Shown one piece after another: positions 13,686-17,995 of a DNA stretch of 51,186 bases. This stretch comes from an uncultured Flavobacteriales bacterium. GTDB taxonomy: Bacteria; Bacteroidota; Bacteroidia; Flavobacteriales; Flavobacteriaceae. The stretch lies in assembly GCA_913063255.1 (NCBI GenBank), contig CAJXYJ010000005.1, forward strand, positions 1 to 51,186, written 5' to 3'. The position numbers and the translations under genes were made by a program. The stretch's first letter is position 1, and every line of letters begins with the position of its first letter. The notes below the pieces were generated by a model, which did no database searches, was not told the DNA's origin, and was given only the letters and a program-made list of their open reading frames with translations.

Positions 13686-13702
13686 GTTAACTTCTAGTAT
13701 AC

Positions 13703-13786
13703 AGTATCAGGTATTTGGCATCAGGTATCAGGTATCAGGTATCAGGTATCAGGTATCTGGTATCAAATATTCAGAATCAAGAATCA
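13703..13786 (+). repeat. Heptamer tandem array (GGTATCA)12, degenerate
   Basis: Twelve consecutive 7-bp units in exact phase. Six are perfect GGTATCA (13724-13751 and 13759-13765 plus near copies), degrading at both ends to AGTATCA and AGAATCA. It starts 18 nt after the wzc-like stop. Period 7 without a single indel over 84 bp is notable. There is no ORF. Confidence 0.92.
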
Positions 13787-13812
13787 GGAGTAATTATATT
13801 TAAAACGAAATC

Positions 13813-13845
13813 CATTGTCCCCTTGAGGGGACTTTAGGGGTGTCC
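13813..13845 (+). repeat. Family A palindromic repeat, copy A1
   Basis: Core hairpin GTCCCC-TTGA-GGGGAC (13817-13832) with right flank TTTAGGGGTGTCC. The upstream flank (ATTATATTTNNAACGAAA-like) is shared with A2, A3 and A8. Confidence 0.93.
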
Positions 13846-13920
13846 TTATCAGGTCTTCAGGTTAAATAAATTTATTCAGATCAAGATTGATTATATTTAT
13901 AACGAAAATCCATTGTCCCC
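13837..13920 (+). repeat. 84-bp direct repeat, left copy
   Basis: The segment from the end of A1 to the core of A2 recurs at 17891-17973 with one substitution and a one-base length difference. The two copies bracket about 4 kb containing the DUF559 pseudogene, the dehydrogenase, the four-helix-bundle gene and the epimerase. Confidence 0.92.
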
Positions 13921-13966
13921 TTGAGGCGTTGCATTGAGTTTATCGAAATGGGACTTTAGGGCTGTC
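13911..13966 (+). repeat. Family A repeat, copy A2, interrupted by a 23-bp insertion
   Basis: The unit is split inside the right arm of its hairpin. CATTGTCCCCTTGAGG (13911-13926) is followed by a 23-bp foreign segment (13927-13949) and then GGGACTTTAGGGCTGTC. The insert contains CATTGAGTTTATCGAAAT, which resembles another short dispersed repeat I remember from Bacteroidota genomes (TTTCGACAAGCTCAATG-like, reverse strand). Confidence 0.85.
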
Positions 13967-14030: not shown

Positions 14031-14062
14031 CAATTGTCCCCTTGAGGGGACTTTAGGGGTGT
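14031..14062 (+). repeat. Family A repeat, copy A3 (left boundary of the DUF559 unit)
   Basis: An intact core and TTTAGGGGTGT flank. The last base of the repeat abuts the ATG of the DUF559 reading frame at 14063. It forms an inverted pair with A4. Confidence 0.93.
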
Positions 14063-14434
14063 ATGAAAAACAAAATAATACCATATAAACCTTACCTTAA
14101 AGATTTAGCCAGAAAATTAAGAAAGAACAGCACTCTATCTGAAGTCCTTTTATGGCAAAAGATAAAATAAAAAGGGTTTGGAGTGCAGTTTCATCGGCAA
14201 GTACCTATGTTGGATTATATTGTAGATTTTTATTGTCATGAAATTCAATTAGCAATAGAGATCGATGGTAATAGTCATGAATATAAGTACTTTGAAGATG
14301 TGGAGCGACAAAACAGATTAGAAAATTATGGTGTTGTATTTCTTCGGTTTAAGGATTTAGAGGTGAAAAAAGATATGTTTAGTGTTGAATTGGCAATTTT
14401 GGAAAAAGTAAATGAATTACAAAAACACCCCTAA
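14063..14434 (+). pseudogene. DUF559 (VSR/restriction-fold endonuclease-like) gene with in-frame stop
   Basis: The reading frame begins MKNKIIPYKPYLKDLARKLR, reaches LLWQKIK, meets TAA at codon 36 (14168-14170) and continues in the same frame as KGFGVQFHRQVPM through to HP-stop at 14434. Together that is 124 codons, the normal DUF559 length. The domain hallmarks are present on both sides of the stop: the N-terminal RKLR-x-TLSEVLLW helix, FHRQ, VDFYCHE, AIEIDGNSH and VVFLRFKDLEV. A single substitution (for example AAA or CAA to TAA) explains the break. A shorter protein from GTG at 14183 would lack the N-terminal helix. The start abuts repeat A3 and the stop codon lies inside repeat A4. Confidence 0.85.
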
Positions 14435-14456
14435 AGTCCCCTCAAGGGGACAATCC
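14425..14456 (-). repeat. Family A repeat, copy A4 (right boundary of the DUF559 unit, inverted)
   Basis: Reverse-orientation copy. Read on the + strand it begins ACACCCCTAAAG, and the TAA at 14432-14434 is the DUF559 stop codon, so the repeat supplies the last residues (HP) and the stop. Confidence 0.93.
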
Positions 14457-14540: not shown

Positions 14541-14570
14541 GTGTCCCCTCAAGGGGACTTTAGGGGTGTC
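14541..14570 (+). repeat. Family A repeat, copy A5, with inverted core loop
   Basis: The right flank TTTAGGGGTGTC is in + orientation, but the hairpin loop reads TCAA instead of TTGA, as if the palindromic core had flipped relative to its flank. It forms an inverted pair with A6 around the uronic-acid genes. Confidence 0.88.
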
Positions 14571-15976: not shown

Positions 15977-16046
15977 TAGTGAGAAGTGAATGGTGAAGAG
16001 TGAAAAGTGAAGAGTGAATGGTGAAAAGTGAGACGTGAAAAGTATA
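15977..16046 (+). repeat. Family B heptamer array, left arm 1 (NNGTGAA)10
   Basis: Ten 7-bp units in exact phase beginning on the first base after the dehydrogenase stop codon: TAGTGAG, AAGTGAA, TGGTGAA, GAGTGAA and so on, with the last unit degenerate. The complementary heptamers TTCACTN occur at 16156-16183, so the pair could form an imperfect long stem. Confidence 0.92.
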
Positions 16047-16116
16047 AAATGAAGAAAGATTAGTGAAAAGATAGAAAGGGAAGGGAAGTATATTGAATAT
16101 TTGAAAATAAATTATT

Positions 16117-16193
16117 GTAATGAAATTCAAAAGTCCAAATTTAGCACAAACTTCCACTCACCGTTCACTAATCACGACTCACTAATAAAAAAT
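16117..16193 (+). repeat. Family B right-arm unit 1 with 21-codon mini-ORF
   Basis: An about 77-bp unit: a GTAATGAAATTC start, a TTTAGCACAAAC segment, then in-phase heptamers ending CACTAATAAAA. It encodes a mini-ORF at 16120-16185 (MKFKSPNLAQTSTHRSLITTH). The mini-ORF stop is 8 nt before the four-helix-bundle ATG. Homologous units lie at 16611, 16687, 16765 and 19026. Whether the peptide is made is unknown. Confidence 0.85.
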
Positions 16194-16541
16194 ATGGATC
16201 ATAAAGATTTAGACGTTTGGAAAAAGGGTATGGATTTAGTAGAAAAAATTTATTCCATTTCTAGCTCATTTCCAGATTCAGAACGATTTGGATTAACATC
16301 ACAAATAAGACGAGCTGCAATATCCATTCCTTCAAATATTGCAGAAGGTGCTGGTAGAAAAAGCGATAAAGAATTATTACAATTTATTAGTATTGCTCTA
16401 GGATCATTAGCAGAAATAGAAACTCAGTATCTTATTGCTATTAGATTAAAATATATAGAAGAAAATAAATTAGTATTATCATTAATTGTAGAAGAAAGAA
16501 AATTACTATTAGGATTCAGAAATTATTTAAAAAGGAAGTAA
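16194..16541 (+). CDS. Four-helix-bundle protein (23S rRNA intervening-sequence / S23 family)
   Basis: A 115-residue protein beginning MDHKDLDVWKKGMDLVEKIY, with SFPDSERFGLTSQIRRAA, SIPSNIAEGAGRKSDKE and LGSLAEIETQ, all hallmarks of the family first seen in 23S rRNA intervening sequences and related to the Avd accessory protein of diversity-generating retroelements. The ATG at 16194 is preferred over an upstream in-frame ATG at 16101 because family members start at this HKDLxVW motif and the extension is repeat sequence. The gene is bracketed by TTCACT heptamers (left) and GTGAA heptamers (right, from 16543). No reverse transcriptase or rRNA is nearby. The function is unknown; it is probably nucleic-acid binding and element-associated. 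Confidence 0.9.
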   Translation: MDHKDLDVWKKGMDLVEKIYSISSSFPDSERFGLTSQIRRAAISIPSNIAEGAGRKSDKELLQFISIALGSLAEIETQYLIAIRLKYIEENKLVLSLIVEERKLLLGFRNYLKRK

Positions 16542-16542
16542 T

Positions 16543-16570
16543 TGGTGAGAAGTGAATAGTGATTAGTGAA
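16543..16570 (+). repeat. Family B heptamer array, left arm 2 (NNGTGAN)4
   Basis: Four in-phase heptamers (TGGTGAG, AAGTGAA, TAGTGAT, TAGTGAA) beginning 1 nt after the four-helix-bundle stop codon. It is complementary in kind to the heptamers upstream of that gene and in the units at 16611-16838. Confidence 0.9.
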
Positions 16571-16610
16571 AAGACTTGAGAGAGTAAATAATAAAATATA
16601 AAAGTATCTT

Positions 16611-16683
16611 AATGAAAAACATAAGTCTAAATTTAGTACAAACTACGATTCACCATTCACTCTTCACGACTCACTAATAAAAT
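16611..16683 (+). repeat. Family B right-arm unit 2 with 21-codon mini-ORF
   Basis: Second copy of the ~77-bp unit. The mini-ORF at 16612-16677 reads MKNISLNLVQTTIHHSLFTTH. It is followed immediately by unit 3 rather than by a gene. Confidence 0.85.
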
Positions 16684-16686
16684 ATT

Positions 16687-16764
16687 GTAATGAAATTCAA
16701 AAGTTCAACTTTAGCACAAACGACTACTCACGATTCACTAATCACGACTCACTAATAAAACAAT
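16687..16764 (+). repeat. Family B right-arm unit 3 with 21-codon mini-ORF
   Basis: Third copy. The mini-ORF at 16690-16755 reads MKFKSSTLAQTTTHDSLITTH. It is closest to unit 1 in the TTCAAA and ATCACGACTCAC segments, while units 2 and 4 share AACATA, so the copies alternate between two subtypes. Confidence 0.85.
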
Positions 16765-16838
16765 GTAATGAAAAACATAAGTCCAAATTTAGCACAATCT
16801 ACGATTCACAACTCACTATTCACGATTCACTAATGAAA
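16765..16838 (+). repeat. Family B right-arm unit 4; mini-ORF stop overlaps the epimerase start
   Basis: Fourth copy. The mini-ORF at 16768-16833 reads MKNISPNLAQSTIHNSLFTIH, and its TAA shares one base with the first ATG of the epimerase (TAATG at 16831-16835). That arrangement is typical of translational coupling. Confidence 0.85.
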
Positions 16839-17825: not shown

Positions 17826-17857
17826 ACACCCCTAAAGTCCCCTCAAGGGGACAATCC
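17826..17857 (-). repeat. Family A repeat, copy A6 (inverted)
   Basis: A reverse-orientation intact copy (ACACCCCTAAAG... on the + strand) starting 4 nt after the epimerase stop. It forms an inverted pair with A5 (14541-14570) around the dehydrogenase/four-helix/epimerase segment. Confidence 0.93.
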
Positions 17858-17876: not shown

Positions 17877-17899
17877 AGTGTCCCCTTTAGGGGGTGTCC
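17877..17899 (+). repeat. Family A repeat, copy A7, internally deleted
   Basis: GTGTCCCC is joined directly to TTTAGGGGGTGTCC: the loop and right arm of the hairpin (about 10 bp) are missing. Confidence 0.82.
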
Positions 17900-17973
17900 T
17901 TATCAGGTCTTCAGGTTAAATAAATTTATTCAAATCAAGATTGATTATATTTATAACGAAATCCATTGTCCCC
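17891..17973 (+). repeat. 84-bp direct repeat, right copy
   Basis: Near-identical to 13837-13920: one G/A difference in TTCA(G/A)ATC and one A fewer in the AACGAAA run. It links A7 to A8 just as the left copy links A1 to A2. Confidence 0.92.
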
Positions 17974-17995
17974 TTGAGGGGACTTTAGGGGTGTC
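17963..17995 (+). repeat. Family A repeat, copy A8
   Basis: An intact + copy with core GTCCCC-TTGA-GGGGAC and flank TTTAGGGGTGTCC. It is the last member of the block, about 100 nt before the ABC permease gene. Confidence 0.93.

Follow-up and report, generated by a model that had tools for sequence, protein, structure and literature searches.

The locus analysed here raises the question of why a small nuclease gene should lie between two inverted copies of a palindromic repeat, with further copies lacking any reading frame scattered around it. The gene sits in a window of 51,186 nt (the whole stretch of DNA that was analysed) from a flavobacterial MAG that is 81% complete. A first-pass annotation had taken the gene and its terminal repeats for one unit, comparable to REP sequences and RAYT transposases with a DUF559 protein instead of the transposase. 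On comparing this locus with its relatives, we consider that the window probably carries a decayed copy of a REPtron-like mobile unit, in which a nuclease of the Vsr/EDxHD type, not an HUH transposase, is the enzyme.

The 30-nt repeat consists of a hairpin plus a tail, and inverted copies of it border the DUF559 gene (Table 1). The exact 30-mer ATTGTCCCCTTGAGGGGACTTTAGGGGTGT starts at 13814, 14033 and 17965 on the forward strand and at 14425 and 17826 on the reverse strand. As had been annotated, repeat A3 (14033-14062) stops on the base ahead of the ATG at 14063, and the final TAA (14432-14434) lies inside the inverted A4 (14425-14454), which codes for the last residues. The six more ORF-less copies reported nearby were also recovered, three being exact (13814, 17826 and 17965), one carrying 2 mismatches (14543), one interrupted (13912) and one partial (17880). 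A4 and A5 together form a tails-outward, REPIN-like doublet. The best inverted match between the upstream and downstream flanks scored 30 vs 9 in one shuffle of those flanks, so the pairing of the window repeats is not a chance effect. The rest of the genome held 1 further repeat copy, on contig C38 (at most 3 mismatches over 27 nt), and the window ORF was the sole PF04480 match in this genome; PF04480 was found in 2 of the 19 genomes of the window's genus.

Table 1 Repeats and gene of the DUF559 locus (positions are those of the window)
Feature	Position	Strand	Basis
Solo repeat A1, hairpin with TTTAGGGGTGT tail	13814..13843	+	exact 30-mer
Repeat A2, hairpin split by 24 nt with a second REP-like motif TTGCATTGAGTTTATCGAAATG	13912..13965	+	sequence
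Terminal repeat A3, left end of the unit with the gene; tail points inward	14033..14062	+	exact 30-mer
DUF559 (PF04480) nuclease ORF, 124 codons including the final stop	14063..14434	+	profile match
In-frame TAA at codon 36, likely inactivating	14168..14170	+	sequence
Right terminal repeat A4, inverted, holding the final stop codon	14425..14454	-	exact 30-mer
Repeat A5, 2 mismatches over 27 nt	14543..14569	+	mismatch search
Solo repeat on the left of the second cluster	17826..17855	-	exact 30-mer
Partial repeat within the second cluster	17880..17897	+	sequence
Solo repeat on the right of the second cluster	17965..17994	+	exact 30-mer

Other repeats were seen in the same region. GTATCAG-like heptamers stand head to tail just past the upstream gene (13697-13794), heptamers of the GTGAANNG type occupy 15979-16071 and 16531-16574, and an 85-nt repeat is present in four copies at 16106-16838, the last three spaced 78 nt. 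A 95-nt block extending well past the hairpin is 97% identical between the two clusters (13832-13926 and 17885-17979) and, judged by this identity, is a recent duplication.

The assignment of the gene to DUF559 was borne out. Read with X at the stop, the window ORF matched PF04480 with an E-value of 5e-27 and 94.3 bits (cut-off 20.6), and its protein of 123 residues has this one Pfam domain over the cut-off. E. coli YcjD and 3hrl (NGO0050) belong to the same protein family. Profile searching found 3hrl (E 4e-28) and the homing endonuclease I-Bth0305I (3r3p, 4e-5). The structural model of a 121-aa relative (L145) formed one compact domain with a pLDDT of 91.8, for which Foldseek returned 3hrl (8e-7), 3r3p (8e-4) and, more weakly, Vsr (0.1). 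In an alignment of 64 sequences, E27, D55, E66, G69 and H72 (numbered after the first sequence) were invariant and D79 nearly so, and we assign E27, D55, E66, H72 and D79 as the putative residues of the EDxHD motif. Profile, model and conserved residues give the protein the fold and the putative catalytic residues of this group. The fold, the conserved acidic and histidine residues and a patchy distribution are common to DUF559, Vsr and the EDxHD homing endonucleases, a family described in PMC3943268 to which one DUF559 gene has been assigned (PMC9403480). The homing enzymes, according to the sections of PMC3943268 consulted, have an extended DNA-binding region; the DUF559 proteins, of about 120 aa and bounded by hairpin repeats, differ in this respect, and no such region was found in the window protein or in the L145 model. 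A role as an anti-phage defence gene was also considered; the PADLOC families gave weak matches only (best E 5e-4, in three relatives of the window protein).

The in-frame stop at codon 36 (TAA, 14168-14170) is present as annotated. In seven broken copies from other loci, stops fell at core codons 19, 23, 24, 49, 70, 99 and 99, and because they share no position the window stop looks like ordinary decay. Programmed recoding at codon 36 is unsupported by such scattered stops, among which a weak cluster is possible at 19, 23 and 24.

To describe how general the association is, 299 genomes of the family were surveyed, 143 of which had a PF04480 match; many of these genomes (G numbers) are MAGs or drafts. 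We took 130 loci from the genus and family, with a few added later, among the stronger of the matches listed, so that decayed copies are under-sampled. A hairpin was called where a stem of at least 6 with CCC or GGG lay within 200 nt of the gene. Among 142 family copies, hairpins stood upstream in 104 and downstream in 102, and 88 copies had both; in windows taken farther away in those loci, a hairpin was present in 30 of 547. At least one side was without a detected hairpin in 54 of the 142 copies and both sides in 24, which may reflect decay, repeat forms missed by the detector, or domestication. GC-rich hairpins are common near bacterial gene ends, and this commonness would favour the view that DUF559 genes settle by chance beside hairpins which act as transcription terminators or mark insertion hotspots. 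We regard that view as very improbable: control ORFs (172 ATG-to-stop frames in the same loci, not confirmed genes) had hairpins upstream in 9, downstream in 8 and on both sides in 1, whereas the DUF559 hairpins stand upstream as often as downstream, match one another and move with the gene.

The family genomes were also compared for the exact window-type repeat (a 23-nt pattern with one N). It was present in 19 of the 143 PF04480 genomes, the window's included, vs none of the 156 others (p = 4e-7, kinship ignored), so repeat presence and gene presence are not independent; in three of the 19 the PF04480 matches are weak.

Beyond the family, a cross-phylum scan with a four-sequence alignment gave at least 546 relatives, of which the 80 best were read; by record title, 41 are from Bacteroidota, 33 from other phyla and 6 unplaced. 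Among these best 80, the relatives from other phyla with full flanks had hairpins upstream in 28/32, downstream in 26/32 and on both sides in 25/32 (distant windows, 6/121); both-sided hairpins were found in 3/5 of the unplaced and in 16/39 of the Bacteroidota relatives with full flanks (distant windows of the latter, 4/149). The best-80 loci partly overlap the family loci, since L256 and L268 belong to contigs of G055 and G072; with identical proteins dropped, the both-sided counts became 87/140, 42/73 and 10/12. Carriers in other phyla include Pseudomonadota, Gastranaerophilales, Doudnabacteria, Planctomycetes and one Methanophagales archaeon. When 30 loci in 20 of those genomes (19 non-Bacteroidota and one unplaced, some of the copies being those already counted) were read, 22 had both-sided hairpins (distant windows, 9/119). 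The layout of hairpin, TTAGGGTGAGGG-like tail, gene, CCCTCACCCTAA-like tail and hairpin is plain in many cross-phylum loci and poor or missing in L341, L353 and L354, among others. The expectation that DUF559 homologues would be flanked by repeats therefore held, at 88/142 copies in the family and 25/32 in other phyla vs 1/172 control ORFs.

The arrangement seen in the window is one form among several. An inverted match of score at least 14 between upstream and downstream repeats occurred within the locus in 81 of 215 copies, between loci in 6 of 215 and at 1 of 122 control ORFs. Direct matches between the flanks reached 14 or more in 112 of the 215 copies and 24 or more in 75, in part because whole doublets, built as tail-hairpin-spacer-hairpin-tail, stand on both sides; direct copies of such a doublet flank the gene in L152, L153 and L291. 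A few direct repeats are instead copies of host-gene sequence: in L124, L117 and L150 the nuclease gene is flanked by directly repeated copies of the beginning of a gene for a small membrane protein, which we take to be DUF6090. By a stricter call of orientation (n=142), 32 copies read +gene-, 9 -gene+ and 3 -gene-, the others being unassigned or one-sided; by a looser call on the nearest hairpins (n=140), 37 upstream hairpins pointed inward and 27 outward, and 43 downstream hairpins pointed inward and 22 outward. Both-sided hairpins are thus common, as had been predicted, but a single inverted pair is not uniform, many copies lying between direct copies of a REPIN-like doublet. Nor is the exact abutment of repeat and ATG, with the stop codon inside the other repeat, general among the other copies. 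Tails shared at least 5 bases with the 3' arm of the hairpin in 146 vs 56 of 359, a modest excess, and the idea that the tail repeats this arm is suggestive only.

We then compared the repeats with the nuclease lineages. Repeat similarity grew with protein similarity (Mantel r 0.449, with 0 of 500 permutations as high, same-genome copies included), although related sequences are not independent and the p-values therefore overstate the case. In 67 host-controlled comparisons, which share members and use genomes with at least 2 DUF559 copies, the nearest protein elsewhere shared more repeat 9-mers than the less similar paralogue of the same genome in 58, the reverse held in 3, and 6 were ties. 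By these comparisons the repeats follow the nuclease lineage rather than the host.

This bears on whether the repeats might be the REPs of a RAYT (HUH Y1) transposase, with DUF559 as a passenger. It is known that RAYT genes have palindromes and REP doublets at their borders (PMC8266576 and PMC3733652, in the sections consulted), and a Y1_Tnp match was present in 13 of 20 genomes checked, several of them weak. The other 7 had none; these include the window genome (81% complete) and three that are 99% complete, G296, G138 and G291. Among 17 Y1 loci (3 of 20 were left out for short flanks), 2 had a hairpin on one side and 0 on both, and no repeat 9-mer was common to a Y1 locus and the DUF559 flanks of its genome. 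The GTAG tetranucleotide adjoins none of the hairpins in the window, where it was looked for. Such a passenger role is hardly credible. CGTC-type REPs were tried as DUF559 partners and dropped: searching up to 500 nt from the gene for ATTCC...GGAAT palindromes yielded six, of which one was CGTC-like (L088).

Comparison of orthologous loci, as the annotation had proposed, yielded sites both with and without the unit, although divergence blurs the exact junctions. The relative G016 retains both genes that flank the window cluster, and the sequence between them reads as one degenerate repeat, apparently split by another motif; A1 and A5 of the window resemble the two sides of this repeat. The window cluster may therefore be an expansion of one repeat, or may have collapsed to one in G016. 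Empty alleles of a DUF559 unit exist in the G062 genus (10 genomes), where the unit occupies one site in G062 and G323, and the site is empty in G282, G321 and G318 and seems empty in G319; the four remaining genomes matched one flank only. In G318 the same unit, spanning hairpin to hairpin (query 783-1255), lies at another place, and in G317 it is elsewhere as well, in two pieces (783-810 and 845-1254). G323 further carries a spacer plus hairpin repeated in tandem, and neither G322 nor G316 has the solo doublet found in G318 (L208). The G101 genus consists of one genome and was thus without an empty-site comparison. Directly outside the inverted pair, 28 of 33 units had no target duplication, 4 had 2 nt and 1 had 4 nt; the target-site duplication that marks DDE insertion sequences and MITEs is therefore lacking in those 28. 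Taken at the level of sequence, these occupied and empty sites indicate that the unit is mobile.

What moves may be the gene alone. If the repeats were old or spread by other means, a free-standing DUF559 endonuclease could home by cutting solo repeats and being copied in through recombination of the flanking repeats. The kinship of the enzyme with the EDxHD homing endonuclease I-Bth0305I, the direct flank matches of 24 or more in 75/215 copies (several of them whole doublets), what reads as a single solo repeat in G016 where the window has the gene cluster, and the missing target duplication in 28/33 units all fit this account. Against it, the G062/G323 site is without a repeat in G282, G321 and G318, and the tracking of repeat type with nuclease lineage across genera is easier if the repeats travel too. 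We consider homing by itself unlikely, though the strongest competitor, and favour a unit in which gene and repeats move together.

Some copies have entered protein-coding genes, with 24 of 133 lying in frames of at least 230 codons. Scans of single examples identified the hosts as HemD, MetH, histidinol dehydrogenase, IleS, LeuS and RecG, and further as a PLP enzyme, a type I specificity subunit, an archaeal HsdR, radical SAM proteins and IspE; other leuS, metH, hemD and recG copies were assigned through shared motifs only. In the examples read, the residues beside the in-frame domain are translated hairpins, and Pfam scans of ten in-frame examples found no intein domain. In recG, the nuclease occupies three genes at the point where intact relatives have a short SKLWHKNELPPHIL-like linker (motif matched in 29/30). 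The uninterrupted recG genes of L319 and L335 have longer linkers there (KGEAVNGTVIPPH and KGPEASSDNERATTPTPPH), possibly the scars of a lost unit. In a tree of 141 rows, built on few columns with rough bootstraps and midpoint rooting, the copies in leuS (14), metH (5), recG (3) and ileS (1) together with the histidinol dehydrogenase fusion formed one group (99/90), and the hemD copies (4) grouped with one free copy, L073 (100/99). We infer that one subfamily may have moved between host genes. Separately, one metH frame (L013, G232) holds two in-frame DUF559 copies with inverted hairpins around each, and in a Methanophagales MAG (L356) DUF559 lies within an archaeal type I restriction HsdR gene.

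Association, co-inheritance and mobility can thus be read from the sequences; that the enzyme cuts its own repeats, and that the DUF559 protein spreads them as the annotation had suggested, we infer. In the favoured model the unit is hairpin(+), DUF559 gene and hairpin(-), with the G-rich tails mostly inward, and in many copies it is enlarged to doublet, gene and doublet; ORF-less hairpins and tails-outward doublets would be non-autonomous or solo derivatives. The nuclease would recognise either the ends made of hairpin and tail or the extruded, single-stranded hairpin, and nick or cut there; repair would then copy the unit or doublet, spreading gene and repeats jointly. Recombination between direct repeats could excise the gene, with a solo repeat left behind, of which the G016 site may be a case, and the in-gene subfamily could persist in frame because the whole unit is translatable.

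Known systems share parts of this picture. REPtrons (RAYT/TnpA-REP with REPs and REPINs) likewise have a hairpin-bordered gene, doublets, solo copies near the gene and copies inside genes (PMC8266576, PMC3733652 and PMC6006769, as far as consulted), and the window locus has the bordered gene, the solo copies and the inverted doublets. They differ in carrying an HUH Y1 transposase and a GTAG tag, where the DUF559 unit has an EDxHD/Vsr-type nuclease and a G-rich tail; the window gene is DUF559, in a genome (81% complete) without Y1_Tnp. Rickettsia palindromic elements and CGTC REPs are also found in frame in protein genes, repair genes included, but are presented in the consulted part of PMC3733652 as having no associated enzyme, whereas a whole nuclease domain accompanies the DUF559 repeats.

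In E. coli, YcjD is annotated as DUF559, and in K-12 (L399) a hairpin with a TTAGGGTGAGGGG tail lies about 170 nt downstream of ycjD; no hairpin was seen upstream of the K-12 gene. The repeats near ycjD may be the Box C repeats of the older literature. A 101-nt stretch around the hairpin had matches in 5376 of 5426 E. coli genomes, at a median of 19 places (2-34) under a lax E limit of 10, and ycjD matches were found in 3365 of the 5426. In an even sample of 59 chromosomes (a 155-kb record left out), a 551-nt query matched 5 to 23 places in the 37 with ycjD, one copy of which is truncated, and 2 to 11 places in the 22 without; this difference probably follows phylogroup and is then no independent test. 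That genomes without ycjD carry the repeat too counts against the model. A clean strain-level empty site at sapF-fabI was sought and not obtained, three ycjD-less loci holding TetR and RND efflux genes there, a swap also reported in PMC12817139.

PF04480 members have been treated as putative nucleases or as unknown, with no repeat link in the consulted parts of PMC1189080 and PMC12817139. A report linking DUF559 to palindromic repeats was not found in the open-access literature searched; subscription papers or preprints could hold one. We see even chances for a wider proposition: that DUF559 nucleases drive mobile hairpin repeats throughout the prokaryotes, as a second counterpart to RAYT/REP that relies on an unrelated enzyme. 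These would include the CCCTCACCC-TAA-CCCTCTCCC...GGGAGAGGG palindromes of several phyla and the E. coli ycjD repeat, with one branch lying in frame, unspliced, inside essential enzymes. Some palindromic repeat families, such as the CGTC REPs, are listed without a known enzyme (PMC3733652, in the part consulted), and were DUF559 nucleases to mobilise hairpin repeats, they would be a candidate enzyme for a set of such orphans. How the host enzymes tolerate a resident nuclease domain in the in-frame leuS, ileS, metH and recG copies is a separate question. The findings point to a little-noticed kind of mobile DNA in bacteria and an archaeon; if this is true, an uncharacterised nuclease family reaching from Bacteroidota to archaea would gain a role, and the E. 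coli copy makes the idea testable in a laboratory strain.
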